Shown in pieces: positions 18,462 to 63,999 of a stretch of DNA of 64,000 bases (position 1 is its first letter; each line of letters begins with the position of its first letter). The DNA lies in IMG/VR virus record IMGVR_UViG_3300021959_006010, positions 1 to 64,000 of that record; one strand, given 5' to 3'. This DNA comes from a virus. The position numbers and the translations under genes are program-made. The notes below the pieces were generated by a model. The model did no database searches, was not told where the DNA came from, and was given only the letters and a program-made list of their open reading frames with translations.

Positions 18462-19405
18462 GCGACAAATTTAAAATTTTAGATTATGATATCATTTATC
18501 TAAGTTACGACGAGCCAAACGCAGAAAAAAACTATGCAGATCTGTGTAGTAAAGTACCGTGGGCTAAACGTGTACACGGTGTAGAAGGATCAGATGCTGC
18601 ACACAAAGCATGTGCCGAATTATCAGAAACAGAACGATTTATTACGATCGACGGCGACAATATTGTAAACGCTAAGTTCTTGCATCAAGAATATGATCTT
18701 AACAATCACGAAGACGTACATTGGAATAGAGAAGTTGACTTTGATCAGTGCGTAGTAAGTTGGACTGCCCGTAATACTATTAACGGATTAATGTACGGCA
18801 ACGGTGGCATTAAATGTTGGCCTAAAGATAAAGTGCTTAACATGAAGACACACGAAAATGCTGATCCCGACAACGTACATGCACAAGTTGATTTTTGTTG
18901 GGATTTACAATACATACAAATGAATACTTGTTATAGTGAGATTATGAATAATTATACTCCGCATCAAGCTTGGCGTGCCGGATTCCGCGAAGGTGTTAAG
19001 ATGGCGCTAGATCGCGGCATTAAACCTAGCAAAGAAGAGTTTCTAGCAGGACATTGGAAAAACTTGCATAGACTATGGATCTGGCTAATGGTAGGTGCTG
19101 ATGTAGAAAACGGACGTTGGGCTATCTACGGTGCTCGTGAAGGCTTGTACAAAACAATGTGTACAGACTGGGACTTTGTAAATGTGCGTGACTTTGAATG
19201 GTTGAATACTTATTGGGATAGTAAAAACTTAGACGAAGTGGATATGGATAGCGAAACAGACGAACTTGGTGATAAACTTATACACGAGTTAGGTATTCCT
19301 ATTGCAGTAGATCCGTTAAATGCAGATCAGAGTGCATTCTTTAAAACAGTGTACCAAAATCCTAGCCGTAATCCTAAACAGCAATTTGTGGTTGCTCCTG
19401 AATGA
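18458..19405 (+). CDS. Glycosyltransferase-like phage protein (DGD motif)
   Basis: A 315-residue protein. The N-terminal block DYDIIYLSYDEPNAEKNY is followed by RVHGVEG and by RFITIDGDNIV (DGD at residues 65-67), a GT-A-like nucleotide-binding layout. The same block (YDIVFISYNEPNANENF, RVHGIKG, WIVDGDAKIV) forms the last third of the repeat protein at 40203-42173, so the two are homologous. The C-terminal half is rich in Trp and has no recognised motif. Its local G+C looks higher than in its neighbours. It overlaps both neighbours by ATGA. The glycosyltransferase call is by fold analogy only. Confidence 0.55.
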   Translation: MSDKFKILDYDIIYLSYDEPNAEKNYADLCSKVPWAKRVHGVEGSDAAHKACAELSETERFITIDGDNIVNAKFLHQEYDLNNHEDVHWNREVDFDQCVVSWTARNTINGLMYGNGGIKCWPKDKVLNMKTHENADPDNVHAQVDFCWDLQYIQMNTCYSEIMNNYTPHQAWRAGFREGVKMALDRGIKPSKEEFLAGHWKNLHRLWIWLMVGADVENGRWAIYGAREGLYKTMCTDWDFVNVRDFEWLNTYWDSKNLDEVDMDSETDELGDKLIHELGIPIAVDPLNADQSAFFKTVYQNPSRNPKQQFVVAPE

Positions 19406-20991
19406 AACTAAATGATATAAAATGGATCAGAGATAAAAATGGCGAATTAACTAGTGATCCGGTTAACGTTGAAAACGTTAACAAACTACTTAATTCGAAA
19501 GGTTGTGGATTTTGTCTTGCAAAATTTACACAAGTTACTATGCATCTTGGTACAGGACATATACATAGTTGCCACCATCCAAGGATGCATAAAATCTCTC
19601 TTGACGAGATACAAAACGATCATAGAGCATTGTTTAATACACAGCATTTAAAATATGCAAGAAAGCAAATGCTAAACAACGAAAAACCTCCTGAGTGCGA
19701 TTATTGCTGGCGTGTTGAAGCAGACGGTAATTTAAGTGATAGGAGTTTCAAGAGTAGCAAGATGTGGGCTCTTGAAAAGTATGACGATATTGTAGAATAT
19801 ACAGGCAATGAAAATATTGCTCCTAGTTATTTAGAAGTAAGTTTTTCTAATGTTTGTAATATGAGTTGTTTGTATTGCGGTCCAGAATTTAGTTCTAAAT
19901 GGGTAGAAGATTTAAAACAAAAAGGTCCAATAAAAGTTTTAGAAGGAACAGACCACGAAAGATGGGTACAAGGATGGCAGGACCTTGATACATTAAATAT
20001 ACCTAATAGAGAACACAATCCTTACATAGAAGCATTTTGGAAATGGTTCCCAGAAGTTTATCCTAATCTTGAAACTTACCGCATTACAGGCGGCGAGCCT
20101 TTAATGAGTAAAGAAACTTTTCGAAGCATGGATTGGCTTGCTGAAAATCCTAATCTAAAACTTGATTTTAGTATCAACACAAATCTAAGTGTACCGGATA
20201 AACTTTGGGATACGTTTATTGAAAAGCTTGTTAAGATTAAAGATAATACAGTTAAAGGAGTAACTGTATTTACAAGTGTTGAAGCATGGGGTAAACGTGC
20301 AGAGTATCTGCGTAGAGGTTTAGATTTTGAAGTATTTAAAAAACGTTATGAGCAACTTGCACAGTTAGGTAATGTTAAAGTTGTAATTATGGCTGCATAC
20401 AATGTTTTAAGTATTACAAGTTTTAAAGACTTGCTCGAATGGCAACTTGAAATGAAGAAAAAATACAATTACAATAGTGCAGTTCTTTGGTGGGAAGAAA
20501 ATACACCTTACAAGTTTAGAGAAGGACTTTCTAATGCAGAACTTAAAAAGAGATCACCGTCTCATATTTTGCCACTAGGTTTAGACATTCCCTATCTAAG
20601 ACATCCTCCGTTTTTGGATGCACAAATCTGCACCGACGAACTTACACAAGAATATATGATTCCTGCTATGGAATATATGGCACGTAATACTGTAGACAAC
20701 AAATGGGTTATGCATATGAGTTTTGAATTAAACGAAATGTATAAATTAAAACAAATTACAGATCACAAAATGAGTGTAACATATTCTGTGCATCCAGGCA
20801 CTGAAGATTATTTTAAAAAAATTACGCACCCTCGAGCAGAATTTTTTGATTTTATTAATGCAAAGGACAAAAGAGACGGAACAGACTTTTTAGAAGTATT
20901 TCCTGAAATGGAAGACTTTTATATGAAGTGCTACGAAGCAAAGCAAGAAGTAGAAAAAAGAAATTCAAAAAATGTTAGTACTGGCACATGA
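19402..20991 (+). CDS. Radical SAM protein with N-terminal twitch-like module (CxHP subgroup)
   Basis: A 529-residue protein. The radical SAM cluster motif CNMSCLYC is at residues 152-159 (C152, C156, C159), and the SAM-binding GGEP is at 230-233. Ahead of the core lies a cysteine module: C35, C38, C57 (in SCHHP), and C99/C102 in PPECDYCW. This resembles the SPASM/twitch auxiliary-cluster domain, but at the N terminus, as in proteins annotated as twitch domain-containing radical SAM. It is the closest paralogue of the gene at 27263, sharing FCLAK..xVxMHLxTG and SDRxxxSS. The reaction is unknown; this superfamily uses a 5'-deoxyadenosyl radical to modify peptides, sugars or small molecules. 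It is coupled to the previous gene by ATGA. Confidence 0.85.
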   Translation: MKLNDIKWIRDKNGELTSDPVNVENVNKLLNSKGCGFCLAKFTQVTMHLGTGHIHSCHHPRMHKISLDEIQNDHRALFNTQHLKYARKQMLNNEKPPECDYCWRVEADGNLSDRSFKSSKMWALEKYDDIVEYTGNENIAPSYLEVSFSNVCNMSCLYCGPEFSSKWVEDLKQKGPIKVLEGTDHERWVQGWQDLDTLNIPNREHNPYIEAFWKWFPEVYPNLETYRITGGEPLMSKETFRSMDWLAENPNLKLDFSINTNLSVPDKLWDTFIEKLVKIKDNTVKGVTVFTSVEAWGKRAEYLRRGLDFEVFKKRYEQLAQLGNVKVVIMAAYNVLSITSFKDLLEWQLEMKKKYNYNSAVLWWEENTPYKFREGLSNAELKKRSPSHILPLGLDIPYLRHPPFLDAQICTDELTQEYMIPAMEYMARNTVDNKWVMHMSFELNEMYKLKQITDHKMSVTYSVHPGTEDYFKKITHPRAEFFDFINAKDKRDGTDFLEVFPEMEDFYMKCYEAKQEVEKRNSKNVSTGT

Positions 20992-22192
20992 TTGGGTTGG
21001 GCCAGAAGGAATATGGCCAAACGGACAAAATTTAGATTTCTACAGCAATCCTCGTTCTTACGAAAAGTCGTACTATTCTATTAGTAATATACATCCTTAC
21101 AATTTAGAAAGTTATAGACATCTTTTTACGTATTCTAAATTAGAATCTGTAATAGGTAATGTCTTTACTCGTAAACACATATCCGAATGCAAAGGAAAAT
21201 TTATATACGAGATAACACCTCTACTGAAACCTTATCAGTGGGCAGACAGAGCATTTGATAATGTTAGTAAATTAGCAATTACTAAACAGCAACAAGGAAT
21301 GTGTTTGTTTGTTATAAACGATATGAATGAAGGATACTCTAATGTAGAATATAATTTTTTTGATGCATTGCATAGACAAATAGAAAGGTATAATTTATTA
21401 CCTGAAAATGTTTTATATATTACAATGAACGCAGTTCTTGAACAGTTTTACAAAGAATGGTGTTTGTCTAATAATATTAACAAGCAAATAAGAATACATT
21501 CTGTTTTTATATTCGAAAACAAGTACAATACAGGAAGTATTACTAATTGTAGTAAGCATTACATTTGTCTAAACAGACAACCTAATCCTTATAGACAGTG
21601 TTTAGTATACGAACTTTGGTGTCGAGGCTTGTTAAAATATGGATATGTTAGTATGCCTGATCCTAGCATACCACTAGATGTTAGTTTTAATAAAGAAAAT
21701 CTAAAGTTATTTAATTTGGACGATTCAAGGTGGGACGAATTTATTTCAACGTTGCCGTACGAAGTTGACGGAAGAGATTTTACATCACAAAGTTGCGATT
21801 TAAATAGTATAAGTGATTTTTATAAAGATAGTGTTTATGCTATTATTTCTGAAAATACATATGGAGAACAAGACTGCATCAAATTTTCAGAAAAAACGTT
21901 TAATGCTTTTGACAATTATTGCATACCTCTTTATTTTTATAATGCAGGAATAGCTAAGGAGTTAAATAAAATTGGATACGTTGCTGACGACAGCATCGAT
22001 AGTGTTTCAAACTTACAAGAAAAATTTTATGCGTTTGTCAACAGGGTTGAAGATATTTGCAAAATTCCAATAGTTCAATTGAATAAGAATACTAGTAGTA
22101 CTAGAAGTAAAAATTTTAAAAATTTACAATTGAGAAGCAAAGACCGTAAAGATAGATATTTGGAGATGTTTAACGGATGGGAAGAATATTAG
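20972..22192 (+). CDS. Glycosyltransferase-like protein (SEKTF family)
   Basis: A 406-residue soluble protein that overlaps its neighbours by 20 and 16 bases. Its C-terminal part (about residues 285-340) reads ENTYGEQDCIKFSEKTFNAF and then CIPLYFYNAGIAKEL. This resembles the donor-site region of GT-B-like exostosin or fucosyltransferase families (TEK..., then iPIyxG). The genes at 35866 and 43335 carry the same SEKT(F/W) element, so this is one of three paralogues. An earlier strand reads KHYICLNRQPNPYRQ. The glycosyltransferase assignment is tentative; homology to the two paralogues is clearer. Confidence 0.5.
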   Translation: MLVLAHDWVGPEGIWPNGQNLDFYSNPRSYEKSYYSISNIHPYNLESYRHLFTYSKLESVIGNVFTRKHISECKGKFIYEITPLLKPYQWADRAFDNVSKLAITKQQQGMCLFVINDMNEGYSNVEYNFFDALHRQIERYNLLPENVLYITMNAVLEQFYKEWCLSNNINKQIRIHSVFIFENKYNTGSITNCSKHYICLNRQPNPYRQCLVYELWCRGLLKYGYVSMPDPSIPLDVSFNKENLKLFNLDDSRWDEFISTLPYEVDGRDFTSQSCDLNSISDFYKDSVYAIISENTYGEQDCIKFSEKTFNAFDNYCIPLYFYNAGIAKELNKIGYVADDSIDSVSNLQEKFYAFVNRVEDICKIPIVQLNKNTSSTRSKNFKNLQLRSKDRKDRYLEMFNGWEEY

Positions 22193-23067
22193 TAACAGGA
22201 AGTAGTGGTTTTTTAGGAAACGCTCTCTGCAAAAGATTGTCTAATCTCGGTTATTTAGATGTTGACGGATTAGACATGGTTCCTGGCCAGTATACTAATA
22301 TTAGAGATTCGGTAGAAAACTTAAACGAAACGTATGATGTGATTTTCCATTTTGCTGCATTTGTAGGAGGCAGAGAAGGCATCGAAAACGATTATCTTAG
22401 AGTTGCAGAAAACATAGAGTTAGATCGAAATCTTTTTGGATTTGTTCAGCGTAACAACATAAAAAAGTTTATATATCCTAGTAGTAGTGCAGTCTATCCT
22501 ATAATTAATCAAGGAACAGATAATATTCCGCTATCTGAAGATATAATTGATTTTGCAACTAATAAAATAGGAGTTAGCGATCATTTGTACGGCTGGACAA
22601 AACTAACAGCAGAAAGAATGCTATGGGAAATAAACAAACACTGTGATACTAAAATATCTGTTGTTCGTCCGTTTAGTGGATACGGGCCTACACAAAGTAC
22701 AGACTATCCTGTTCCTAATCTTATTAACATTATCAAAAACAATCCTGATAATATAGAAGTTTGGGGTACAGGAGAACAAACAAGAGATTTTGTATATATT
22801 GATGATGTAGTTAAAACTTTAACATGGTGTATGGCCGATAATCAAAAATATAAAACATTAAATATAGGTACTGGTATACAAACTAGTTTTATAGATTTAA
22901 TCAATACTGCACATACAATTATACACGGCCGAAAGCCAAAAAATATTAAAAAATTAGTACATAAGCCAGTTGGTGTAATGCACCGTTACTGTGATCCAAC
23001 TCTACAACAAAAACTTAGAGTTTATCCTACTACTAGTTTAGAAGAAGGTATTAAAAAGTTTCTATGA
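22177..23067 (+). CDS. NAD-dependent sugar epimerase/dehydratase
   Basis: A 296-residue extended short-chain dehydrogenase, close to the usual length of the family. The Rossmann motif TGSSGFLG is at residues 7-14, FHFAAFVGG lies near 57-65, the catalytic serines are in PSSSAVYP (101-108), and the YxxxK pair is Y138/K142 in YGWTK. A later RDFVYIDDVV segment is typical of sugar-nucleotide epimerases and dehydratases of the GalE/GDP-fucose type. It probably produces an activated sugar for the neighbouring glycosyltransferase-like enzymes. The exact substrate cannot be read from the sequence. Confidence 0.88.
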   Translation: MGRILVTGSSGFLGNALCKRLSNLGYLDVDGLDMVPGQYTNIRDSVENLNETYDVIFHFAAFVGGREGIENDYLRVAENIELDRNLFGFVQRNNIKKFIYPSSSAVYPIINQGTDNIPLSEDIIDFATNKIGVSDHLYGWTKLTAERMLWEINKHCDTKISVVRPFSGYGPTQSTDYPVPNLINIIKNNPDNIEVWGTGEQTRDFVYIDDVVKTLTWCMADNQKYKTLNIGTGIQTSFIDLINTAHTIIHGRKPKNIKKLVHKPVGVMHRYCDPTLQQKLRVYPTTSLEEGIKKFL

Positions 23068-24851
23068 AAAGCATTATATTTTTTCAAGTAAACTTTCCGA
23101 TTGGGTTTGGACATTTTCAAACTCATTGGCTTCCTTATGCAGTAGCACGATTGTGGAGTTACGCTAAAACACATCCTGAAATTGAAAAAAACTATATTGC
23201 AAAAGATTTTATTTTTGAAAGACTGCCGATTGAAAGCTTTGTTGACAATTTAGAAAATGTTGACGTTGCGGCTTTTAGCTCTTATATATGGAACGAAAAT
23301 TATAACTTAGCAGTTGCAAAGAAGATTAAGGAAAAGTTTCCAAAATGTAAAATTGTATTCGGCGGTCCGCAAGTTCCAGACAACAGTAAAAATTACATAA
23401 TAGAACATCCCTTTATAGATCATTTATTCCACGGAGAGTCTGAGTACAATTTTGCAGACTTCTTATTAGGAAATAATACCGATAAAGATATCAGAGGAAA
23501 TCGCATAGAAGATTTAGATACTATTGTTAGTCCGTTTTTAGATGGTGTAATGGATAGCATCGTCGAAAAGCATCCAAATAAAAACTTTAGTGTGACACTT
23601 GAAACAAATAGGGGTTGTCCTTATGCGTGTACGTTTTGTGATTGGGGTAGTTTAACTTACAGCAAAGTTAAAAAGTTTGATACTGAAATTGTAAAAAAAG
23701 AAATAGAGTGGATTAGCAAAAACGGTATTAAGTTTGTTGATGTTGCTGATGCAAATTTTGGAATATTTAAAGAGAGAGATTTTGAAATTTTACGCCATAT
23801 GATTCGATACAAGAAAAAATATAAGTATCCCGAAACTTATAGTTTTAATTGGCAGAAAAATAGTACAGAAAAAACACTAGAAATGGTAAAGTATCTTACA
23901 AATAATAATAGTGCAAGAGGTATGACATTAAGTGTTCAAAGTATGTCTGAAAATGTATTAGAAAACATCAAACGTAAAAATATGGAAGTTAGTAACTACG
24001 AAAAAATATTACAAGAATGTAATGTTAAAAATATACAGACCTATACAGAATTGATTTTAGGACTTCCTGGAGAAACATACGAATCTTGGGTAAGCGGAAT
24101 AGATAAACTTTTAACAACAGGCCAACATAATAATATAGAAGTGTGGTTATGTCAAATGCTAGTAAACGCTGAATTAAGCAGCACTGAAAGCAAAAAGGAA
24201 CACGGCATTGAAACAGCAAATATTAAAAATTATATAAGTGGTGATACTGAAGACTTAGAAGGCATTGAAATAATAAAAAGCACTAATACGCTAACTTATA
24301 AAGAATTATTAGATTGTTATATGTATAGTTGGATGATTACTAACTATCATAGTTTTGGCTGGACGCAAATAATTAGTAGATGGTTGCACAATACACAAGG
24401 AATATCTTACAGAGAGTTTTATGATAAACTATTTGAAGCAGTAAAAGATACAAGTTTTTATTACGAAGTTAAAATTAATATACACAAGGCTTTTGAATCA
24501 GGTCTTATACAAGAAAAAGGCATGCACTATTACATTGCCGAATTTCAAAAAAAATTACACCAAAGCAGAAACAAAACATTACGTTTTGTAAAAGAGTTTG
24601 CTTTAAAAAATTATAGTGTACCTGAAGATGTTTTTACATTTACAGAATACTTTGTTACCGACTATGGAAATCAAAAAGACAGAACAAAAACTTTTAATAC
24701 TCCAGTATGGAGCATAATTAACAATATTGATCATACATATAAGTACAGATTTAAAATTACACAGCGAGTAAACACAGAAAATGAGTATTACGATAGTTTC
24801 TATTTTAGAAGAAGAAAAGGATGGGGCAAATGCATAGTAACATCCTTGTAG
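23064..24851 (+). CDS. B12-binding-type radical SAM protein
   Basis: A 595-residue protein. The N-terminal Rossmann-like domain (1-160) ends in KIVFGGPQV at about 97-104, as in cobalamin-binding radical SAM enzymes, but I see no DxHxxG cobalamin ligand motif. The radical SAM motif CPYACTFC is at residues 185-192, followed by the DANFG signature near 229-233 and ELILGLPGET near 330. It is a clear paralogue of the genes at 37026 and 62908, sharing the ETNRGCPYACTFCDWGSLTY block with 37026. Family members act as methyltransferases or ring-forming enzymes; the reaction here is unknown. It is coupled to the epimerase by ATGA. Confidence 0.85.
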   Translation: MKSIIFFQVNFPIGFGHFQTHWLPYAVARLWSYAKTHPEIEKNYIAKDFIFERLPIESFVDNLENVDVAAFSSYIWNENYNLAVAKKIKEKFPKCKIVFGGPQVPDNSKNYIIEHPFIDHLFHGESEYNFADFLLGNNTDKDIRGNRIEDLDTIVSPFLDGVMDSIVEKHPNKNFSVTLETNRGCPYACTFCDWGSLTYSKVKKFDTEIVKKEIEWISKNGIKFVDVADANFGIFKERDFEILRHMIRYKKKYKYPETYSFNWQKNSTEKTLEMVKYLTNNNSARGMTLSVQSMSENVLENIKRKNMEVSNYEKILQECNVKNIQTYTELILGLPGETYESWVSGIDKLLTTGQHNNIEVWLCQMLVNAELSSTESKKEHGIETANIKNYISGDTEDLEGIEIIKSTNTLTYKELLDCYMYSWMITNYHSFGWTQIISRWLHNTQGISYREFYDKLFEAVKDTSFYYEVKINIHKAFESGLIQEKGMHYYIAEFQKKLHQSRNKTLRFVKEFALKNYSVPEDVFTFTEYFVTDYGNQKDRTKTFNTPVWSIINNIDHTYKYRFKITQRVNTENEYYDSFYFRRRKGWGKCIVTSL

Positions 24852-25450
24852 TTGCACAGCCTCGCAGCGGCGGCACATTAGCGTGTGCAGTGTTAAGTAA
24901 AATACATAACATTCCTTATATAGGAGAATATTTTAATTCTCACAGATACGGTTATAATATACATAATCAATTGAGAGATTTTCCTAGTCCTGCTATAGTT
25001 AAAGCCAGCTTTTACGATTTAAAAGATAATTTTGATGAAGTAATGGAGTTGGGATTCAAAGAAATATATCACGTCAACAGAACAGATCCAGTAGGAATGG
25101 TATGTAGTAGTTTTATTTCCTCTATCACAGATGTTTTCCATGTTACAAAGAACGAAACTCATGAGCCAGTAAAAGATAAAATTATGGACAAGGATTTTGT
25201 TAAATGGTTTTTTTCAAAAGACAATCCCGGCGGATGGTTTTATAATAATTCTGCTAACATTCCTTTTATGGAAAAAGTAAATTATCATTCGTTATACTAT
25301 AACGACACAGTTGATGAAAACATTATGTTAGTACAAATAGCAAACGATTGTTATGGTATAAGTGTGGACATAAAAAAACTTTACAAAGATAAATCTCTAG
25401 CAATTAAAAACATAGACGAAGTTAAAGGCTGGGTTAGTGAATACATTTAA
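24821..25450 (+). CDS. Sulfotransferase-like protein
   Basis: A 209-residue protein. The N-terminal strand ILVVAQ is followed by PRSGGT at about residues 14-19, which matches the PAPS-binding loop of sulfotransferases (PRSGTT or RSGST forms). HVNRTDPVGMVCSSF near residues 85-99 could be the 3'-phosphate-binding segment (R and S). It is shorter than typical sulfotransferases (about 250-300 residues). An ATG at 24830 is an alternative start. The gene overlaps the B12-type radical SAM gene by 31 bases. A role in sulfating a glycan would fit the context but is inference. Confidence 0.6.
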   Translation: MGQMHSNILVVAQPRSGGTLACAVLSKIHNIPYIGEYFNSHRYGYNIHNQLRDFPSPAIVKASFYDLKDNFDEVMELGFKEIYHVNRTDPVGMVCSSFISSITDVFHVTKNETHEPVKDKIMDKDFVKWFFSKDNPGGWFYNNSANIPFMEKVNYHSLYYNDTVDENIMLVQIANDCYGISVDIKKLYKDKSLAIKNIDEVKGWVSEYI

Positions 25451-26180
25451 TAAAAATACTTTAGTTGTTTTTGGCGATAGTAATGTTTGGGGAGCAGAAT
25501 TAAAAGATGTGCCTCATAGACAACCAGACTTCAAAAGTGTTGTTTACGATCCAAAAGATATTGATAACTGGCCCTATCATATTAGACATAGTTTTTCAGG
25601 AGTCATTGCTGAAAAGAATAATATGCGTATATTAAACTTATCAATACCTGGATGCAGCAATGATACAATTTTTAGAAGGATAAACAAATTTTTACAAGGA
25701 AATTATCCTGTTGATCTTGATGACTGCTTTGTAATGGTTTTTTGGACAGGCATACTTCGTAGAGAATTTTTTAGATCAGACATAAACAAATATCTAAACT
25801 ATTCTCCTTTATGGGAAGAAAAACTACAACTGTTTCCTAAATTCCATAAAATTTATTCTAAACTTTTTATGCACGAAGGATATGATTTAGTTAAATCATT
25901 TAACTATCTAAATTCAGTTAATGCATTACTAACATACAACAATGTTGAATTTTGTCAAGGGTTTAGTTTAATGGAAACAGAATTAATTGAAACAGCTAAA
26001 AATGCAAACCTTCCTAAGTTTTTATCGTTCGATCCAAATGATGCAATTACTGCTATGGTTATTATTGCAGGCAACGGGTTTGAAAACAATGACTATATAT
26101 TAGAAGGCCATCATCCGTCCGAAAAAGGGCACCAACTAATTGCAAATAGATTTACTGAACTTCTTGACAAACTAGTATAA
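25437..26180 (+). CDS. SGNH/GDSL-like hydrolase
   Basis: A 247-residue protein starting at GTG and overlapping the previous gene by 14 bases. Residues 9-16 (LVVFGDSN) are block I of SGNH hydrolases with the nucleophile serine. LSIPGCSNDTI near residues 65-75 may be block II (Gly), and the C-terminal GHHPSEKGHQ (H225/H226) supplies the catalytic histidine in block V. Such enzymes hydrolyse or transfer acyl groups, often O-acetyl groups on glycans. It is one of three SGNH-like genes in the cluster. The next promoter's -35 box lies inside its last codons. Confidence 0.72.
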   Translation: MNTFNKNTLVVFGDSNVWGAELKDVPHRQPDFKSVVYDPKDIDNWPYHIRHSFSGVIAEKNNMRILNLSIPGCSNDTIFRRINKFLQGNYPVDLDDCFVMVFWTGILRREFFRSDINKYLNYSPLWEEKLQLFPKFHKIYSKLFMHEGYDLVKSFNYLNSVNALLTYNNVEFCQGFSLMETELIETAKNANLPKFLSFDPNDAITAMVIIAGNGFENNDYILEGHHPSEKGHQLIANRFTELLDKLV

Positions 26181-28669: not shown

Positions 28670-29379
28670 GAGTAGGAATATTTGGTGATAGTTTTGCTAC
28701 TCACGGTAAACATGGAATCTCTGAAATAGGAGAAAGCTGGGTTTCGCTTTTAGAAAAAACACCTGGTCTCGATGTTACAGCCAACGGTCAAATGGCGGAT
28801 AATATTTACGGAACATATTCTAATATATTAGAGAATTATCATCATTTTGACACTATTATTTTTGTAATTACTTCTCCTGAGAGAGCAATTACGTCATTCC
28901 GTAAATTGGCTAGTTATCCTATGATGGAACATGTTCTTAAAACTGAAAAATTTACAAGAGAGCAAAAAGACATTATAAAATCTATCAAAGATTATCATTT
29001 TTATGCATTACAAGATAGCGCAGTTTATAATCAACTAATCGAATCTAATAAATTAATGATCGAAAAAGTTAGAAGAATTATAACTAATAGCAGACGTAAC
29101 TTAATACTAGTGCCAGCGTTCGAAGCAAGTAAAAAAGTATGTAAGGATCTAAAAGGTATCTCGCTTAGTTGCGTAACTGAATATGAAGATTTAAATACAG
29201 ACATTAAAAAAAGTAGCAAAAAAGGATACGATCTAAGACACTGCCACATGTCAGAAGAAAATAATAGAATTTTTTATGATTATATAATGAGTATTTTAAA
29301 AACTCCTGGAGTACAGACTACTAATTTAAATTTAGATATGTTTGTTATACCAGACAGCGTAGAGAAATATGCAACATGA
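28666..29379 (+). CDS. SGNH-like hydrolase
   Basis: A 237-residue protein. RVGIFGDSFATHG at residues 2-14 is an SGNH block I with the candidate nucleophile Ser9. TIIFVITSPERA near residues 64-75 fits the central strand with block III. The C-terminal DLRHCHMSEENNRIF provides a candidate catalytic His. Divergent SGNH-like proteins of this type are common in marine phage genomes. It is sandwiched by ATGA overlaps between two radical SAM genes. It may be an acyl esterase or acyltransferase on a glycan; the substrate is unknown. Confidence 0.62.
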   Translation: MRVGIFGDSFATHGKHGISEIGESWVSLLEKTPGLDVTANGQMADNIYGTYSNILENYHHFDTIIFVITSPERAITSFRKLASYPMMEHVLKTEKFTREQKDIIKSIKDYHFYALQDSAVYNQLIESNKLMIEKVRRIITNSRRNLILVPAFEASKKVCKDLKGISLSCVTEYEDLNTDIKKSSKKGYDLRHCHMSEENNRIFYDYIMSILKTPGVQTTNLNLDMFVIPDSVEKYAT

Positions 29380-56287: not shown

Positions 56288-57046
56288 ATGGATTTAAAAA
56301 AGTTTGACAAAAACGGCAATCCTCTTAATCTTACAGAACGAGATTTACGACATTTAAGAGGAAAATATTACGAGTATTGGTTAAAAGATCCTGCTCTTAC
56401 AATGCCGACAGAAGAGCAAGTATTGTGCGAACTTCAATTAACAGCACTAGGAAATTTTGAAGAATTGAATTTTGATTTAGATAGCAATTTATTCCACAAA
56501 GAAATAGAAGCTTACAACGATAAATGGGTGCCATATCTTAGAAGAGAAGGAGTGTCTAATGACAGAGAAGGACTTTTGCTAGTAGGTCTAGAAGGAGATA
56601 CTCCTAGTGATAGTTTGAGTCGCCCTGAAGCAATTAAGCGAGCAGGAAGAAATTTAAACGAAACTGATTTTACGTATCCTACACAAGCATATAAAGATTT
56701 AACTAGCCTGCATCCTATACTAGATTACTGGACAGATCTTGGTAGAACTATGTTGATTCGAACACACGAAGGCGGATGGTTCCCTCCGCATAGAGATCAG
56801 CCGCATTTAAAAAGAGATACTTTTCGGGTCATTATGTTTATTGGTAGAGAAGTGGGTATGAGTTCGTACGAGTGGTTTTTAGGCGACGAACGTCAAGTAA
56901 TTTGTTCAAACAGTGCATATTATGTAGATACTAGAAAAGTACACAGAACACACAGCTGGGAAAGAAATAGCACACATTTGATTTTAAACATTCCTAAAAC
57001 ATGGGAAAATGTAATGAAGTTGATGAGTGTATTACGTCACTTGTAA
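56288..57046 (+). CDS. Fe(II)/2-oxoglutarate oxygenase, Asp/Asn hydroxylase-like
   Basis: A 252-residue protein. GGWFPPHRDQPH gives the HxD ligands (H168, D170). R180 follows in DTFRVIMFIG, and the distal histidine is H219 or H222 in KVHRTHSWERN, before the strand THLILNI. This order (H.D, R, H, then hLhLNi) resembles aspartyl/asparaginyl beta-hydroxylase-type oxygenases. It starts two bases after the radical SAM gene and shares a base with the next ATG (TAATG). Confidence 0.68.
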   Translation: MDLKKFDKNGNPLNLTERDLRHLRGKYYEYWLKDPALTMPTEEQVLCELQLTALGNFEELNFDLDSNLFHKEIEAYNDKWVPYLRREGVSNDREGLLLVGLEGDTPSDSLSRPEAIKRAGRNLNETDFTYPTQAYKDLTSLHPILDYWTDLGRTMLIRTHEGGWFPPHRDQPHLKRDTFRVIMFIGREVGMSSYEWFLGDERQVICSNSAYYVDTRKVHRTHSWERNSTHLILNIPKTWENVMKLMSVLRHL

Positions 57047-57732
57047 TGAGAACCAAAGAACAAATAGATAGAATACAATCAACACACGGAAATCCTATTT
57101 CCATAAAAAATATTGTTGATGTAGAACCTCTTAAAAATTATTATAAAGATAATAGTAATAAAATAATACAGAAAAATACAGGTCCTAAAATTTTAGAAGT
57201 TGACCCGAACGAGTTGCTATTCTCTAATTTAATTTATAATATTAAAAGAAGTGTTGGTGAGTTTGAGGTAAGATACATACATTATTTTGATGTTACACAT
57301 CCTCATATTATACACAACGACGATACTTTTGAATACCCTAACTGCTATAAAGCATTTACTATTCCTTTAGAAATTTATGGCGACAGTGATGATATAAAGT
57401 TAGTAGTTTATGATCAATATTATTATGGCGGACCTGCCAAGTTTTTCAACGGAGAAACTAAAAAAGACGGCCAAGTTTATTACAATACACCAATAACTGA
57501 TTATAATGATGTATATGGTGTAAACGAAAATGGAATACCTGAAAACATTAAAAATAATTACTTAACACATTTAAAAGATAATTGGCTTAAAGGGTTAAGT
57601 ATTAATGCCATGCTTGATTGGAAAATAGGCGATGTTTTGTGTTTTGATAGTTTAGCTTTACATTCGTCATCTGACTTTATAAATAAAAATGTATCGAGAA
57701 AAATAGGAATATCTATTTTTACCACATTATAG
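57046..57732 (+). CDS. Fe(II)/2-oxoglutarate oxygenase-like protein
   Basis: A 228-residue protein from the ATG at 57046, coupled to the previous stop (TAATG); an upstream in-frame ATG at 57001 lies inside the previous gene and is less likely. THPHIIHNDD provides an HxD pair (H90, D92). The distal histidine is H206 in LALHSSSDF, and R218 in SRKIGISIF fits the 2-oxoglutarate arginine. The layout fits the double-stranded beta-helix oxygenases. The substrate is unknown. It forms a pair with the oxygenase before it. Confidence 0.62.
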   Translation: MRTKEQIDRIQSTHGNPISIKNIVDVEPLKNYYKDNSNKIIQKNTGPKILEVDPNELLFSNLIYNIKRSVGEFEVRYIHYFDVTHPHIIHNDDTFEYPNCYKAFTIPLEIYGDSDDIKLVVYDQYYYGGPAKFFNGETKKDGQVYYNTPITDYNDVYGVNENGIPENIKNNYLTHLKDNWLKGLSINAMLDWKIGDVLCFDSLALHSSSDFINKNVSRKIGISIFTTL

Positions 57733-57740
57733 GATATCTT

Positions 57741-58397
57741 ATGGATTGGCAAGAATTAATTAATAAAAGACATACAACATTTGCATGGGACGATTCAAAA
57801 GTTCCGAGTAGAAGTGTAATAGAAGAAGTATTTGAAGAAGCATATTTACATGTTCCTACAAAAAACTTAATGTATCCATACGAAGCAATAGCATATAGAA
57901 ACGATGATGACGAAATTCGAAAAGAGATAATGACAATATGTCATCGTAACAAAGATATGCCTGTTGAAACAGATCGAGGAAATCCACAAGTGTTAGCACC
58001 TTGGTTAATCGGATTTACTGGAAGATATACACAGGATTTAGAAAAAAGATACGAAAGAAGTTCTTATCGAGAAAGACCTATACAAAGAGACAGTGAGCAA
58101 ATGGAAATTGGAATGTGTGCTATGTTCTTTGCATATGCCTTTGCTAGTAGAGGCATACAAACAGGCTATTGCCAGAATATATTGAATAATCCTCTTAGAG
58201 GAGGAGAAATATTTGGTTTAGAACCTGGTAGGAAATTAAGATTTATAATGGGTGTAGGATACGGAAAAGATAGTGCAACAAGGCACGAATACTACGATCC
58301 GAGAGTAAATCAAAATAAGAGTATTCCTTATACTCCAGATCATGTTGGTGTAATTTATCCGAGACCGGATATAGAAAAGGTATTTAGAGTGCTGTAA
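57741..58397 (+). CDS. Nitroreductase-like protein
   Basis: A 218-residue protein of typical nitroreductase length. The N terminus MDWQELINKRHTTFAWDDSK fits the family's LIxxRrSxRxF opening with changes (RHTTFAW). EMEIGMCAMFFAYAFASRG near 130-148 is the long helix, and LRFIMGVGYG near 176-185 the last strand (lGyp equivalent). An AGGA ribosome site precedes the ATG. Flavin-dependent reduction or oxidation, such as dehydrogenation, is plausible. It ends inside a perfect hairpin shared with the convergent gene. Confidence 0.62.
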   Translation: MDWQELINKRHTTFAWDDSKVPSRSVIEEVFEEAYLHVPTKNLMYPYEAIAYRNDDDEIRKEIMTICHRNKDMPVETDRGNPQVLAPWLIGFTGRYTQDLEKRYERSSYRERPIQRDSEQMEIGMCAMFFAYAFASRGIQTGYCQNILNNPLRGGEIFGLEPGRKLRFIMGVGYGKDSATRHEYYDPRVNQNKSIPYTPDHVGVIYPRPDIEKVFRVL

Positions 58398-58407: not shown

Positions 58408-59223
58408 CTAAGCAGCTACTAGTTCTTCTTCTTTGTCCCAGTATTGTTCGTCTGCTTCTAAAATTCCACCTTGACCTGTTACAACTACTACTAGATGTAC
58501 ACGGTCGATGTCGCTGTCATTCTTAACCCAGTGCTCGTACGCTTGATTTAAGAACCACACACTGCCGTCAGCTGGCATATGCTTCTCTACAGTACGTTTT
58601 TTTCCTTTGGTGCCTACAACAACGTCTTCGTGCGTAATTAACGGTATATGTATACGAACTGCTTTATCTGTGTTTATGTCAAGATGTGGTTTAATTTCTT
58701 CTCCTGCTTTAAGCACAGCATATCTTGTACGTGCAACATGGCCTACGTGTTCTTCAATCATGTCAAGAACTTCTGCTACATAACCTTTACAAAACTCGTT
58801 ACGTTTATCATACAATTTTTCGTCTGCAATAGGGGTGTAATCAGGATGGCTTGGGTCTGAAATCTTTTCCATACGTCTTGCAAATTTGCGAGGATCCATT
58901 CCTGTTTCCTCTAGTTTTTTAGCAAGATCTTTATTGTGATCATCTGGATTACCATTAAATTCGGTTAAACACAACATTTTATATGCTTCGCCGCCGTCCG
59001 CAACAAGTTTTCCTTCTCTTTCAGCTTTTTCTTCGTCTGTAAGAAAATATTCAAGAAGCACTCTTCGAACTACAAGTCCATCTTCAGTATTATTGCCGTA
59101 ACTTAATCCGTTATACATATCCCAATTGTCGTAACCCAATTCAAAAAATTCTTTACGCAAGCGATCGATATCTACCTTAAAATTAAGTTTTGCCATTAAT
59201 GGTAAGTGTTGTCTTTTAAGCAT
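58408..59223 (-). CDS. Aspartyl/asparaginyl beta-hydroxylase-like oxygenase
   Basis: A 271-residue protein. KPHLDIN gives the HxD ligands (H180, D182). R190 lies in AVRIHIPL, the distal histidine is H231 in AYEHWVKND, and R241 in DRVHLVVVV binds the co-substrate. This order and the loop PADGSVWFLN match aspartyl/asparaginyl beta-hydroxylase-type Fe(II) oxygenases. The ATG at 59223 has GAGG about ten bases upstream; an internal ATG at 59196 is an alternative. It has its own late-promoter octamer and stands apart from the minus-strand operon before it. Confidence 0.75.
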   Translation of the reverse strand: MLKRQHLPLMAKLNFKVDIDRLRKEFFELGYDNWDMYNGLSYGNNTEDGLVVRRVLLEYFLTDEEKAEREGKLVADGGEAYKMLCLTEFNGNPDDHNKDLAKKLEETGMDPRKFARRMEKISDPSHPDYTPIADEKLYDKRNEFCKGYVAEVLDMIEEHVGHVARTRYAVLKAGEEIKPHLDINTDKAVRIHIPLITHEDVVVGTKGKKRTVEKHMPADGSVWFLNQAYEHWVKNDSDIDRVHLVVVVTGQGGILEADEQYWDKEEELVAA

Positions 59224-59251
59224 GTTTAGTAACCTCTACTCTTTCTATGTG

Positions 59252-59259
59252 TATTTATC
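59252..59259 (-). promoter_or_regulatory. T4-type late promoter octamer (GATAAATA on minus strand)
   Basis: The plus-strand TATTTATC reads GATAAATA on the minus strand, 28 bases before the ATG of the hydroxylase-like gene, inside a 42-base intergenic gap. It matches the octamer found before the fibre gene at 13166. Confidence 0.55.
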
Positions 59260-59265
59260 TATTGG

Positions 59266-59820
59266 TTAATATGTGTGTGTTATTTCTTTAAATTTATGTT
59301 TTGATTCTATCATAAACATAATTGTTTTAGCACATTCTTTCGGATCCATTAATTGTGCTAGTACACGTTGCTGATCAGCAACTGGCCATTCGTCTATTCC
59401 TTGTCGAGCTAGTAAAGTATCAACATACCCTGGATTATACATCATGCTCTTAAATAAAGTTTCGTTATCGCTTATCCAAAAGCTATATGTTTCGAGAGAT
59501 TTTTTAGCAACATTATAATTTAATCTCGATAGAGGTCGACCTTTAAGGACGTCTTTATGCCATGTCCCAACATTAATAACTTTTTTTGAAGTATTAGTCC
59601 AGTTTTTGTGTGCGTACTTTAAGAGTTCTAACTGTCCAGTATAATGATACGCATTGTTAACGAGTACATCGTATTCTAAAACTTGCGAATAAACATCAGG
59701 ATTACTAATATCAAATCCAGTACTTTTACTTCCGCCAGTAACAGTATATCCTTTTTCTTTAGCAAGTTCGTAAATTGCTTTACCTATACCACTTGTGTGT
59801 CCGGTTATAAAAATACGCAT
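59266..59820 (-). CDS. Short-chain dehydrogenase/reductase
   Basis: A 184-residue protein, shorter than the usual 240-260. The Rossmann motif TGHTSGIG is at residues 6-13, NNAY at 55-58 stands for NNAG, YNVAK supplies the active-site Tyr102/Lys106, and YNPGYVDT is the PG motif. The usual catalytic Ser before the Tyr appears replaced (INVGTWH, with Thr86). The C-terminal substrate-binding part is reduced. It is probably an NAD(P)-dependent oxidoreductase. It follows the desaturase by ten bases, suggesting the two work in one pathway. Confidence 0.75.
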   Translation of the reverse strand: MRIFITGHTSGIGKAIYELAKEKGYTVTGGSKSTGFDISNPDVYSQVLEYDVLVNNAYHYTGQLELLKYAHKNWTNTSKKVINVGTWHKDVLKGRPLSRLNYNVAKKSLETYSFWISDNETLFKSMMYNPGYVDTLLARQGIDEWPVADQQRVLAQLMDPKECAKTIMFMIESKHKFKEITHTY

Positions 59821-59830
59821 TAATATACCA

Positions 59831-60619
59831 TTATTTTACAAATGCATGTTTTATGATCCATCCAGTAGGATCAAGTTCGTATGGTCGTACCTTGTAATAG
59901 TACGCACTAGGATTTCCATGATGATTGTTATGTAATGCTTCTCCAAGTAATCCAAAACCAGTTAATGCATTAATAAGAAGACCATTACGTGTGTCATCGT
60001 TAGAATCATAGTTTCGGTATCCTATATTAGGAAATACTCCGTGACCGAATATATTATTAACTCCGAAGTTAAAGCGAATTAAAAATACCGGAATTAAGTA
60101 CGCATTTAATACAAATGTCCATCCGCCTATAATATACCATGCTACACAATATCCTAAAATAACAAACCAATACCAGTCATGCATAAATTTAACTGCTGGA
60201 TTTCTTAATTCTTTAACTACTGCTCGTGGTCGAATACGCTGAAAATGTTCTTTGTCTTGTAAACAAAAGAAACTTCTAAATATTCCGATAGCACTTGGTG
60301 CGATAGGATCGTGTTCGGTGTCGGCGTATGCATGATGTATTCTGTGTATATCTACCCACCATGCAATGCTACCTTGTGTACTTAATGTAGCAGTAAATGC
60401 TAAAAACCAATGACGCAATTTTCCTGTATTGAAGCTTTTATGACCGAAGTATCGATGCATTCCTGCACTACTGCCCATCATTGATACTAAAAATGTCCCA
60501 ATAATAAATGGCCATAATTCAAAGTACTGTGGCTGTAGAATTAAAAAAGGAGCACTTAACCAGCATAAACGCTGTACTCCGGCTAACAACCAAGTTCGAT
60601 GGAATGCTTTAATTGTCAT
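59831..60619 (-). CDS. Fatty acid desaturase, acyl-CoA delta-9 type
   Basis: A 262-residue membrane enzyme with all three histidine boxes: HRYFGH at 55-60, HRIHH at 92-96 and HNNHH at 230-234. About four or five hydrophobic segments are visible (roughly 12-32, 36-54, 71-88, 148-168, 170-188). The pattern HRIHHAYADTEHDP is characteristic of stearoyl-CoA-type desaturases, as is the late HNNHHGNP. It would introduce a double bond in membrane acyl chains at a di-iron site in the host membrane. It overlaps the TauD-like gene by 11 bases. Confidence 0.9.
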   Translation of the reverse strand: MTIKAFHRTWLLAGVQRLCWLSAPFLILQPQYFELWPFIIGTFLVSMMGSSAGMHRYFGHKSFNTGKLRHWFLAFTATLSTQGSIAWWVDIHRIHHAYADTEHDPIAPSAIGIFRSFFCLQDKEHFQRIRPRAVVKELRNPAVKFMHDWYWFVILGYCVAWYIIGGWTFVLNAYLIPVFLIRFNFGVNNIFGHGVFPNIGYRNYDSNDDTRNGLLINALTGFGLLGEALHNNHHGNPSAYYYKVRPYELDPTGWIIKHAFVK

Positions 60620-61649
60620 TAAAATTCTCTTTCATAAAATTATTTAGCTCGTTGAGTTTGTTAGAATAAATGTCTGCATGTTCTTTTTGGAAATAAGGAT
60701 TATAGTTAGATACTTGAATGTTTTCATAGCCATGTTGTACACGGTATGCCAAACGTCCTTCTACATCACCTAAACGTCGATGGTTAGTAATACTATTATC
60801 AAAGAACAACCAATCGTTATTGTTTTCATACCAATGATCCCACATATAACGTTCAGTCATAAGTTCTTTGTTTAGACGATCAAATAGTGCATTGCTTTCT
60901 TCTTGACTCATGCCTACAATGCCGTCTACTGTATTAATACTATAGTGTAGACCTTTAATGCCGCCTGGGCTTTGTATAACCATAGGCAAATAACTTTCTA
61001 GCTCAGGATTCATATTGATACGCATCATTTCGTCTTGATCGCCTAGGTCTTTAACGTGTAGCATACCTGGCTTATGCCGATGGATGACAATCATATCATC
61101 TAGTTCGCTGCGGAAACTTTCGGAAATATCTTCATAGTAAGTAGCAGTTTGTAAAAATCCTGTACTAGAACCAATCATATTTTCTTGTCCTAATAGTGCA
61201 ACACCGGGTGCAAAAATATGATTGCCCGCCTCGTTACTGTGCCACTTTAGCTCGCCGTCTGGAAAAATACCTGTATAATCTCCACGCTTATCACGAATGT
61301 TTGTTACACGCTGCGTCCCCGAAGGACCTTTAGTTTTAAACCTCTGTTTAATTACATTAATATGTTCGGGTTTAATACTAGGATCGTTTTTAATTGCTTT
61401 ACTAATTACTTCTTTAGCCGGAACTCCAGGATAGTGACTGCAAATATTAAGCATACCACTATAGCGTAAAGGTCCCCATTTTGTGATATACTTAGTTACA
61501 TCTTTTGGAGAAACGTTACAATTACGAATAATTGTAACTAAGTTATCCATATGTATCTTACCAATTTCTAACCATTGGTCGTCGGTCATATTCTCAAAGT
61601 CTACATCGTCGATATAGACAGCATAATTATGTGGGTAAGATATTTTCAT
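60609..61649 (-). CDS. TauD/TfdA-like oxygenase with altered iron-ligand motif
   Basis: A 346-residue protein. LKWHSNEAGNH at about 134-144 aligns with the WHxD motif of TauD-type Fe(II)/2-oxoglutarate oxygenases, but Asn139 stands where Asp is expected, with Glu140 next. The distal part FFDNSITNHRR (H290) and GRLAYRVQ (R299/R303) are as expected. The domain KWGPLRYSGML near the N terminus is also family-like. It may have an unusual iron site or another activity. It overlaps the genes on both sides (11 and 23 bases). Confidence 0.72.
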   Translation of the reverse strand: MKISYPHNYAVYIDDVDFENMTDDQWLEIGKIHMDNLVTIIRNCNVSPKDVTKYITKWGPLRYSGMLNICSHYPGVPAKEVISKAIKNDPSIKPEHINVIKQRFKTKGPSGTQRVTNIRDKRGDYTGIFPDGELKWHSNEAGNHIFAPGVALLGQENMIGSSTGFLQTATYYEDISESFRSELDDMIVIHRHKPGMLHVKDLGDQDEMMRINMNPELESYLPMVIQSPGGIKGLHYSINTVDGIVGMSQEESNALFDRLNKELMTERYMWDHWYENNNDWLFFDNSITNHRRLGDVEGRLAYRVQHGYENIQVSNYNPYFQKEHADIYSNKLNELNNFMKENFNDN

Positions 61650-62223
61650 AGTTAAAGTCCCTTCGGTTATTGTATATTATGTACTGCCAGCATTCCGGAT
61701 CTGGTGGGTTAGGTGCTACTAAGCACGGTTCGTCTGATACTTTCCATTCTTCGTTAGTATAATTAGTTATCATCTCGGCTAATTGTCGAGTCCTTCTTCC
61801 GGATGTTTTCGTTTCTTCTCTACCGATAAAGAAATCGGTATATCCTAAGTTATTACAAAAATCTATCTGTTGTGTAATATGATCTATTGTATCTAAACGC
61901 ATGCCATCAGTGCCCTTACCAAAATTTTTCATTTTATACTTAGGTACAATGCAGTATCGAGTACACAAACGTATAATACCGTTATACATAGGTCGTGTCC
62001 AAGCTAAAGATGCAAGCACTGGTTCTTCGTCAACTGTTGTCACGGTATAACAAAGTGTATTATTTTTTAAGTTTTCGTCTATAACATAGTTAGGAGATCT
62101 TAACTGATCAGACTTTGCTACTTCTTTAAAAATGTAAATAATTTCTTCAGAAGGAACTTCTGTTGTAAAGGTATTAGAATTACCATCTAGCTTTTCGTAT
62201 AGTTTTAAAGGTTTGAATCTCAT
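61627..62223 (-). CDS. Unknown protein, possible GNAT-like acyltransferase
   Basis: A 198-residue soluble protein. The middle PVLASLAWTRPMYNGIIRLC and then TRYCIVPKYK resembles the beta-strand core of GNAT acyltransferases, and GYTDFFIGREETKTSGRR a later strand and helix. The canonical acetyl-CoA loop (Q/RxxGxG/A) is not evident, although NFGKGTDGMRLDT is near the right place. It overlaps the TauD-like gene by 23 bases and the gene before it by ATGA (four bases). The assignment is weak. Confidence 0.4.
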   Translation of the reverse strand: MRFKPLKLYEKLDGNSNTFTTEVPSEEIIYIFKEVAKSDQLRSPNYVIDENLKNNTLCYTVTTVDEEPVLASLAWTRPMYNGIIRLCTRYCIVPKYKMKNFGKGTDGMRLDTIDHITQQIDFCNNLGYTDFFIGREETKTSGRRTRQLAEMITNYTNEEWKVSDEPCLVAPNPPDPECWQYIIYNNRRDFNYENILPT

Positions 62224-62936
62224 AATGTAAACTTGTTTGATTTTTGGAATAGTCTTTTTCTTGCTTTCAGTAAAATATTTTCGTCTGCTACTTTTAGTTC
62301 TAACGGAATTTTTTCTTTACGCACTGGTACTAATTGACACAGAGGAGTTCCTGCAGGAATAGTTACACGACCTTTTGTTGTGTGCCAAAACATATGTATA
62401 TTAAAGTCACTTTGAAATCCTTCGCATTTGCCAGGACATGCTGTAAATTTTGGATCGTCATCATAGTAGACAGGAAGGATTTGTAATTCATATCCTTTAG
62501 GAATATCAAAACTATAAGGTATAAACACTTTAAAAATATGATTATGATAATTTCCTGTAGGTATCTTCATTGGACCTTTATTTGTATCAAATGTAGTAAT
62601 TAACGGGTGTTTAAAATCTATAGTATCGAGAAACTCTTTTAGATTAGTTGGATAAAATATTTCAAATTTATCTCCGTCTGTTTCTATTGTAAAGTCATGC
62701 CAAGTAGTAGCTATGTAACCAGATTCCATTACATTACGCACACCTGGACACTTTGCTACACTAATAGTACTTGCTCTGCCGTCTGTGACCTTCTTGTATT
62801 TTTGAAACGCTGTAGCACACTGTTTGACCCATTTACGCTTATAATCGCGAGCCGGGTAAATAGGGTACTCGTCTGTAATAGCAGTTGCTTCGCTATAAAA
62901 TTTAACGCTAGGCTTTTTCAGAAAGGGTATATTCAT
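62220..62936 (-). CDS. Unknown conserved protein (beta-sandwich-like)
   Basis: A 238-residue soluble protein with many short hydrophobic strands. The C-terminal TIPAGTPLCQLVPVRKEKIP and the earlier DIPKGYELQILPVYY give a pattern I associate with DUF6065-like proteins of unknown function, a recollection not checked. No catalytic motif is visible. Its start lies inside the end of the B12-type radical SAM gene (29-base overlap), and it is coupled to the next gene by ATGA. It often helps to consider such proteins as sensors or oxygenase-fold relatives, but nothing here decides. Confidence 0.5.
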   Translation of the reverse strand: MNIPFLKKPSVKFYSEATAITDEYPIYPARDYKRKWVKQCATAFQKYKKVTDGRASTISVAKCPGVRNVMESGYIATTWHDFTIETDGDKFEIFYPTNLKEFLDTIDFKHPLITTFDTNKGPMKIPTGNYHNHIFKVFIPYSFDIPKGYELQILPVYYDDDPKFTACPGKCEGFQSDFNIHMFWHTTKGRVTIPAGTPLCQLVPVRKEKIPLELKVADENILLKARKRLFQKSNKFTL

Positions 62937-63999
62937 AATCGTATGCTCTTAGTGATTTTCTAAACGGTGTTAATTTACGTCCTAGTTCGTCTTGTGCTTG
63001 CTCAAAATTTTCTGCAACATACATTAGTTCGTCTGCCCTAAACATTGTATGGAACCAGTAACGTATTGCTCCTGTGCTACGTATTTTACCCTCGACCATT
63101 GCTTCTCGCCAGTGTGTTCGATGTTCTTCCACACGAGCCTTCCAAAATGGCATTTTGTCTAAGTTGTCAAAAAACTCAAGTATTTCGGCACTTGGTTTTA
63201 AAATATCAGTTAACAATTTTGTGTTATTAAATGTATTCATCCACCAAGTATAATCGTACATTGTTAACAGATCTTCTGTGCTAAAACTAAAACAACTGTT
63301 TATAAGATCTTTTCTTACAATATTTGTTTTATCTTGTTTAGTATCAAAATCTTCAAATATTAAATCTCTGTTTCGGTGATAGAATTTATTTGATGTTTGA
63401 TAGATATTATCTCTGTATGCATATGCATGATGTACTTGTAGTTCGTAATCTTCTCTATGGTTTAACAAAAGCGGCATATTAGGAACTGCTTCTAATGCAT
63501 GGAACGCCTGTGTCTCAACACCATGTCCGAAATCTTTGTCTAGTGTGTATAACCAACTTTCAGGTGTTTCTCCCGGAAGACCGAGAATAAGTTCACTGTG
63601 ATAAGGAATGTTATTTTCTTTATAATAGTTGAGAAGATATTCTAGTTGTTCTGTTTTAATATTACTACGGTCATTATATGCAAGAGTTTTCTTACTCCAA
63701 CTTTGAATACCTAATTTTAATGGTGTCCAATGTCCGCTTTCTGCTGCAAAATTATCTTTAAAAAATATTTTACTAATTTCAGGTACATACTTAACACTAT
63801 TTTTAGCAGTGCCGCATAGACTAATAAACACATCATCACGCTTGTGATCACGCATATACTTTGTCATGTCTAGATCACGCTCATACATTCCCCAATTTGC
63901 ATCTATAATTTTAACACCAGTAATTGACTCGCTTTTTAAAAGTTTATCTATAGTCTGATAGTTTACATCGTTGTCATATTTGCTAACAACACTACCTGT
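62908..63999 (-). CDS. B12-type radical SAM protein, 5' end outside window
   Basis: The minus-strand frame is open to the right edge, so about 363 C-terminal residues are present and the cluster-binding CxxxCxxC lies outside. KIIDANWGMYERDLDM near the visible N terminus matches the DANFGIFxERD block of the genes at 23064 and 37026. SELILGLPGETPESW, further on, matches ELILGLPGETYESW. It is therefore a third paralogue. The ATG at 63888 is internal to the conserved block and is not the real start. It is the first visible gene of the minus-strand operon. Confidence 0.78.
   Translation of the reverse strand, partial: TGSVVSKYDNDVNYQTIDKLLKSESITGVKIIDANWGMYERDLDMTKYMRDHKRDDVFISLCGTAKNSVKYVPEISKIFFKDNFAAESGHWTPLKLGIQSWSKKTLAYNDRSNIKTEQLEYLLNYYKENNIPYHSELILGLPGETPESWLYTLDKDFGHGVETQAFHALEAVPNMPLLLNHREDYELQVHHAYAYRDNIYQTSNKFYHRNRDLIFEDFDTKQDKTNIVRKDLINSCFSFSTEDLLTMYDYTWWMNTFNNTKLLTDILKPSAEILEFFDNLDKMPFWKARVEEHRTHWREAMVEGKIRSTGAIRYWFHTMFRADELMYVAENFEQAQDELGRKLTPFRKSLRAYDYEYTLSEKA

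Follow-up and report, generated by a model that had tools for sequence, protein, structure and literature searches.

Why would a virus devote about 45 kb beside its tail fiber genes to 16 enzymes of a single superfamily? The question is raised by the first 64,000 bases (bases 1–64000, the whole stretch of DNA analyzed here, which we call the window) of the 275,366-base virus record IMGVR_UViG_3300021959_006010. There, genes for oxygen-sensitive radical S-adenosylmethionine (rSAM) enzymes form an island together with genes that suggest sugar chemistry. We think that the island is probably a kit for surface decoration with sugars of an unusual kind. Its most likely function is to synthesize such a glycan and to attach it, with a presumed acceptor and a presumed chemistry.

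How many rSAM genes are there? The record holds 19, of which 16 are in the window (the last crosses its edge) and three outside. A PF04055 profile search of the whole record returned 18 matches, 15 above and three below the curated cut-off. Fifteen of the 18 lie inside the window or straddle its edge, and the gene at 44622 (genes are named by the coordinate at which their entry in the table begins) was added as the sixteenth with hmmscan. The PF04055 scores of 27263, 45710 and 47008 are below the Pfam cut-off; all three match NF033640 or align with its members. The first-pass annotation had claimed at least 16 rSAM genes, and all 16 that it named can indeed be placed in the superfamily by PF04055, NF033640 or alignment, with a CxxxCxxC motif read in each. 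This includes the gene that the window edge cuts, for which the motif (CPFKCAYC, residue 178 of 62908–64569, minus strand) lies beyond the edge. Chance is not an issue, because this domain recurs in 16 of about 50 genes in a row.

Ten of the 16 belong to the twitch-first class, as had been proposed. The seven scanned with NF033640 (N_Twi_rSAM, curated cut-off 170 bits) all exceed the cut-off with 214–386 bits; 47008, 48417 and 49504 were placed in the class by alignment across the cysteine motifs instead of an NCBIfam scan. Seven cysteines are invariant among 11 aligned twitch proteins (C9, C27, C73, C76, C126, C130 and C133), which gives the NF033640 architecture of N-terminal twitch cysteines followed by CxxxCxxC. 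The three genes described as B12-type all match CysS as well as TokK strongly, and the similarity to TokK extends over the B12 and rSAM domains. Only 37026 exceeds the cut-off for the B12-binding domain (PF02310), and its 244.9 bits against the KedN5 family NF033712 are under the 700-bit cut-off of that family. Judged by domains and long similarity, these three are putative cobalamin-dependent methylases of the TokK/CysS type. The assignment of SPASM domains fared less well. The genes at 34694 and 44622 do form a second, SPASM-like group, but 34694 scores just at the cut-off of the SPASM profile and 44622 does not match it. Similarly, 55165 had been called a distinct SPASM protein; it is an rSAM gene of a third type, in which Pfam detects no SPASM domain (its open reading frame, ORF, is listed from 55066 and its first ATG is at 55165).

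Are these genes copies of one another? In a tree, none of the 11 twitch proteins has a sibling from this phage as its nearest neighbor, although 19402 and 27263 lie fairly near one another. Twitch siblings within the phage share 20–37% identity, and some cross-phage orthologues share 61–86% (61–76% for those of 47008). The paralogues thus appear to be ancient, and since orthologues are closer than siblings, separate enzyme roles are indicated rather than dosage. Recent tandem amplification is ruled out by the tree, where the closest neighbors all come from other sources.

The record is that of a bacterial virus, and the island is part of a large T4-like phage. A terminase large subunit (250128–251723 of the record), a T4-type DNA polymerase (87008–89680), a ribonucleotide reductase (196435–198744) and a phage DNA helicase are encoded on the same record, and tail fiber genes adjoin the rSAM cluster (the protein at 13166 matches a PHROG tail fiber protein, E 9e-20). 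The link to virion genes that the first-pass annotation had drawn therefore stands. Bacterial contamination can be rejected because these phage genes share the record and independent viral contigs are syntenic. No tRNA gene was found within the window. The terminase is 57–64% identical to those of the phage genomes G013 and G024, of two G026 fragments and of two contigs of a Rickettsiales metagenome-assembled genome (MAG). We infer from these and other relatives, not from the sample record, that the phage is marine.

The rSAM cluster is not unique to this phage. Single-protein searches of viral contigs gave no match, and a search of annotated phage records with one twitch protein (29376) matched only the Vibrio phages K566 and K567; K566, an isolated phage, has fewer copies of NF033640 genes. 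A scan of viral contigs for CNLxCRxCGP-type motifs found at least 119 stretches. Since the scan picks records by this very motif, a match in 28 of 28 records is circular; the information lies in the copy numbers alone, which may include SPASM-type cross-matches. PF04055 counts are 20 in 342 kb for G013, 20 in 198 kb for G024, 14 for G015, 13 in 54 kb for G020 and 11 for the Campylobacter phage CP220. The last equals the published number (PMC2853527) and serves as a control for our counting.

The order of genes is conserved as well. All 14 viral loci with glycosyltransferase (GT)-like genes of the 16169 type show the order tail fiber, s, a, G, G, x, K, twitch rSAM array (letters as in the table), read as far as each contig reaches and with small variations; the 14 loci come from 13 contigs, this record included. 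Two contigs in a bacterial bin show the same order. Further downstream, several phages repeat genes for a carbamoyltransferase, a large GT-like protein, a methyltransferase-like protein, a SPASM rSAM, a QueC-like protein, a twitch rSAM and a 55165-type rSAM. Hence, large marine T4-like phages repeatedly carry rSAM-rich islands behind their tail fibers, with the gene order preserved, and these islands hold many ancient enzyme subfamilies of unassigned chemistry.

What do the other genes in the island suggest? An epimerase, a UDP-sugar dehydrogenase, GT-like genes and SGNH-like hydrolases are interspersed among the 16 rSAM genes. The AlphaFold model of 18458 (pLDDT 87.6) has glycosyltransferases as top PDB matches (E 1e-4, with a low TM of about 0.3) and also weakly matches GT-A enzymes in a viral library; its DxD motif (D65/D67) is invariant. 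In some Bacteroidota contigs, N_Twi genes adjoin a NodU-type carbamoyltransferase, a GDSL hydrolase, a UbiA prenyltransferase, a GT4 and an epimerase, which hints at the tailoring of glycans. Carbamoyltransferase, SGNH and epimerase families are common to these loci and the phage clusters; the NodU-type family is frequent in phage clusters, but not in this one. The sulfotransferase-like identity proposed for 24821 found no profile support. On balance, we consider a glycan product of some kind reasonably probable.

Table. Genes of the island and its borders (window coordinates)
Coordinates	Strand	Feature	Evidence
9153–11246, 11248–13125, 13166–14653	+	Three paralogous tail fiber genes	Mutual paralogy
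14702..16179	+	Pair of conserved genes of structural type (14702, 15829), anchors s and a	Equivalent location in loci of other phages; function by position
16169..17858	+	Paralogous GT8-like pair (16169, 17022), anchor GG	Paralogy, conserved order, LDTDV motifs
18458..19405	+	GT-A-like protein, anchor K	AlphaFold model, weak PDB matches, DxD
19402..20991	+	Twitch-first rSAM	NF033640 297 bits, CNMSCLYC
20972..22192	+	GT-like, groups with 35866	Family of 35 proteins in 28 loci; no profile match
22177..23067	+	NAD-dependent sugar epimerase/dehydratase	PF01370 E 9e-38
23064..24851	+	Cobalamin-type rSAM	TokK E 6.5e-80, PF04055
24821..25450	+	Putative P-loop/sulfotransferase-like	Sequence impression; no Pfam support
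25437..26180	+	SGNH/GDSL hydrolase	PF00657 E 1.7e-4 (below cut-off), GDSN motif
26209..27261	+	Cluster family without assigned fold; distant relatives 30587–31444, 32671–33531	Family alignments
27263..28669	+	Twitch-first rSAM	NF033640 302 bits
28666..29379	+	SGNH-like hydrolase	GDSF and DxxH motifs; no profile match
29376..30590	+	Twitch-first rSAM	NF033640 386 bits
31416..32696	+	Twitch-first rSAM	NF033640 324 bits
33528..34697	+	Twitch-first rSAM	NF033640 314 bits
34694..35869	+	rSAM, C-terminal SPASM-like domain	PF04055 E 7e-10, SPASM at cut-off
35866..37029	+	GT-like	Family with 20972; no profile match
37026..38912	+	Cobalamin-type rSAM	TokK E 2.4e-76, PF02310 E 1.4e-12
38957..40183	+	UDP-glucose/GDP-mannose dehydrogenase	PF03721/PF00984; GGACHPRD with catalytic-type Cys
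40203..42173	+	Four tandem ~104-aa modules and C-terminal GT-A-like domain	Sequence self-comparison, motifs
42154..43125	+	Methyltransferase-like, conserved beside 40203-type genes	Synteny; no Pfam support
44622..45701	+	SPASM-like rSAM	PF04055 E 1.9e-7; 33% identity to 34694
45710..46960	+	Twitch-first rSAM	NF033640 277 bits
47008..48417	+	Twitch-first rSAM	SPASM and rSAM Pfam; 76% identical to gene in another phage
48417..49538	+	Twitch-first rSAM	PF04055 E 1.6e-9, family alignment
49504..50748	+	Twitch-first rSAM	PF04055 E 2.6e-14, family alignment
52252..52953	+	PP-loop ATPase, QueC-like	SGGADS and CETCWWC motifs
52905..54071	+	Twitch-first rSAM	NF033640 214 bits
55165..56286	+	rSAM of another type	PF04055 E 8e-16; 86% identical to G020 gene
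56288..58397	+	Two 2-oxoglutarate-oxygenase-like genes and nitroreductase	HxD motifs in first two; PF00881 for 57741
58408..62936	-	Asp/Asn hydroxylase, SDR-like, fatty-acid desaturase, TauD oxygenase, two unassigned genes	Pfam for 58408, 59831, 60609; SDR-like by sequence impression
62908..63999	-	Cobalamin-type rSAM, continues to 64569	PF04055 E 2.3e-8, TokK E 5.9e-35, CPFKCAYC

Some observations stand beside this argument. The gene at 26209 and its two distant relatives form a cluster-specific family in which N, H and GK residues are invariant and which repeatedly adjoins twitch rSAM genes; the structural model for 26209 is poor and gave no structural match. The roughly four tandem modules of 40203–42173, each of about 104 residues and 31–43% identical, lie N-terminal of the GT-like domain. 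Homologues of this protein have about 220 to 1494 amino acids, and the number of modules may differ between phages. The rSAM genes outside the window are a twitch-first gene (156588–157715), a paralogue of 55165 (92883–93821) and a SPASM-like gene split over the ORFs 94206–94544 and 94534–95214. The latter two ORFs overlap by 11 bases, which could mean that the gene is divided in two, that a frameshift occurred or that the assembly is wrong here. In the Rickettsiales MAG (MED657), the contigs NZHE01000012 and NZHE01000008 (loci L168, L173, L178 and L182) carry the phage locus. The same assembly holds a terminase of this phage group, which places phage DNA in a bacterial bin.

How could the kit work? 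The dehydrogenase and the epimerase would make activated sugars, the TokK/CysS-like enzymes would C-methylate, and the twitch and SPASM enzymes might perform radical dehydrogenation, epimerization, decarboxylation or similar reactions (34694 weakly matches cytosylglucuronate decarboxylase, E 0.002). Amidation of a uronic acid is a possible task of the QueC-like enzyme. Phage glycosyltransferases would next attach the product, still in the cytoplasm, to an acceptor that is most likely the neighboring tail fibers or other virion proteins, and virion proteins decorated in this way could change how the virion meets its hosts. The phage's own A-type iron-sulfur carrier (136532–136900 of the record) and glutaredoxin (194892–195149) would help to fill the many clusters; IscU and PaaD were not found in the record.

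The acceptor is the difficult part. That the locus is a host-recognition or glycan island from which virion proteins, likely the fibers, are glycosylated in the cytoplasm is a reading of the sequence that we put forward tentatively, and we are just as cautious about a virion protein as the acceptor. One could also argue that the island remodels the O-chain or capsule of the host through the host's lipid carrier and export, which would prevent superinfection or shield the cell during infection. Such remodeling is the published reading of pelagimyophage host-recognition clusters with glycosyltransferases and rSAM cassettes (PMC7029224), and it fits the glycan-type loci in which bacterial N_Twi relatives sit as well as the sugar dehydrogenase and epimerase. 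The place beside the fibers, however, is equally explained by virion decoration, and the cluster shows no flippase, polymerase, ABC exporter, membrane-bound initiating transferase or acetyltransferase. Hydropathy detects no protein with several transmembrane segments between 8539 and 58397. Near viral twitch genes, 8 of 257 proteins have at least one membrane-like segment and 1 of 257 has three or more, compared to 23 of 129 with three or more near bacterial twitch genes (Fisher p 5e-11, with segments called by simple hydropathy and loci that are not independent). Membrane proteins are thus nearly absent near viral twitch genes, and no export machinery is visible in the cluster. This mildly favors a cytoplasmic acceptor, perhaps the tail fibers, over lipid-linked export, and we regard remodeling of the host surface as somewhat unlikely. 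It is less likely still that the rSAM enzymes act on a polypeptide, such as the tail fibers or a hidden peptide, in the manner of maturases of ribosomally synthesized and post-translationally modified peptides (RiPPs), by epimerization, C-methylation and cross-linking, with oxygenases adding hydroxyl groups. Many peptide maturases belong to SPASM/twitch rSAM families, and the maturase profiles match weakly here; the region contains an aspartyl/asparaginyl hydroxylase, and many ancient, separate paralogues would suit many sites or steps. But the cluster offers no small ORF with conservation that could encode a RiPP precursor: the sole free one (43112–43333, 73 aa, TTG start) has no relative that we could find. 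Pfam shows neither a leader-binding domain nor a protease, and the sugar-nucleotide enzymes would be left unexplained. Finally, a QueC-like gene adjoins twitch rSAM genes in several phages (a relative, L143:5502-6170, matches QueC PF06508 at the cut-off), and CP220 encodes a QueD-like protein close to its rSAM module. The island could accordingly make a small molecule or modify nucleotides or DNA by deazaguanine-type chemistry, unrelated to surfaces. This we consider very improbable: the match to QueC does not exceed the cut-off, no QueD-, QueE- or FolE-type gene was identified in the region, and the fixed place behind the tail fibers and the glycosyltransferase content would have no explanation.

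Decoration of virion proteins with an unusual glycan has its own weaknesses. Substrate, product and modified virion protein are all things we infer. Phage genomes are generally poor in membrane proteins (42 of 361 proteins here have any segment), and host export machinery could serve the island. The GT-like proteins 16169, 17022, 20972 and 35866 have no Pfam match, and the fold match of 18458 is weak. Many bacterial N_Twi loci have no obvious glycan genes, for which reason the glycan link is suggestive. A candidate late-promoter motif, TATAAATA, stands before 14702 and before the corresponding gene of two relatives and is missing at other loci; genome-wide it is not enriched (22 observed, roughly 25–38 expected). 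The dedicated biosynthetic or surface-modification system proposed in the first-pass annotation holds in part: the gene company fits, but among large marine phages such an island is nothing exceptional. A bolder version, in which large marine phages of one widespread lineage carry a complete cytoplasmic pathway whose dozen or more distinct radical enzymes build a highly modified decoration of sugar or peptide for tail fibers, we consider doubtful. If product and acceptor were found, a large group of uncharacterized phage metabolic genes would be explained and new radical enzymes would become available for study.

How does the island compare to known systems? We found no described precedent for a virion decoration system based on radical chemistry. 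Phages with many rSAM genes are a different matter. Multi-rSAM T4-like phages have been published before; hence, this phage is a large representative of a kind already described, though little explained. TARA_ERS488813_N000010 is a T4-like phage of 183 kb with 12 rSAM genes, an A-type iron-sulfur carrier, a glutaredoxin, PaaD and Cas4 (PMC5332604). It shares with our record the many rSAM genes, the carrier and the glutaredoxin, but not PaaD. The Campylobacter phages CP220 and CPt10 have 11 and 12 rSAM genes and a five-gene interchangeable rSAM module (PMC2853527). In CP220, whose lineage is distinct, rSAM genes are likewise found together with nucleotide-diphospho-sugar transferases, and the phage has the SPASM-like, 55165-like and amidinotransferase families in common with the marine clusters. 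The amidinotransferase of one marine cluster (L147:8949-10040) is 35% identical to CP220 gp086 (L205), which lies in the rSAM module. The module genes of CP220 and CPt10 are not twitch-first (one has a weak A1 match), and they lack the tail fiber order of the present locus. The TokK and CysS methylases resemble their counterparts here over the B12 and rSAM domains; our versions are phage-borne and their function is putative.

The closest parallel is the pelagimyophage host-recognition cluster, a hypervariable island at the tail fibers with glycosyltransferases, a UDP-glucose 6-dehydrogenase and rSAM cassettes (PMC7029224). Like such clusters in T4-like phages, our locus combines a fiber-side island and glycosyltransferases (partly recognized by fold or motif) with a T4-type polymerase and a terminase, and it shares the dehydrogenase and the rSAM genes. 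The cassettes are mentioned only briefly in that study, whereas rSAM genes dominate here. What our analysis adds is the fixed gene order at the fiber end of the island and the link to bacterial loci.

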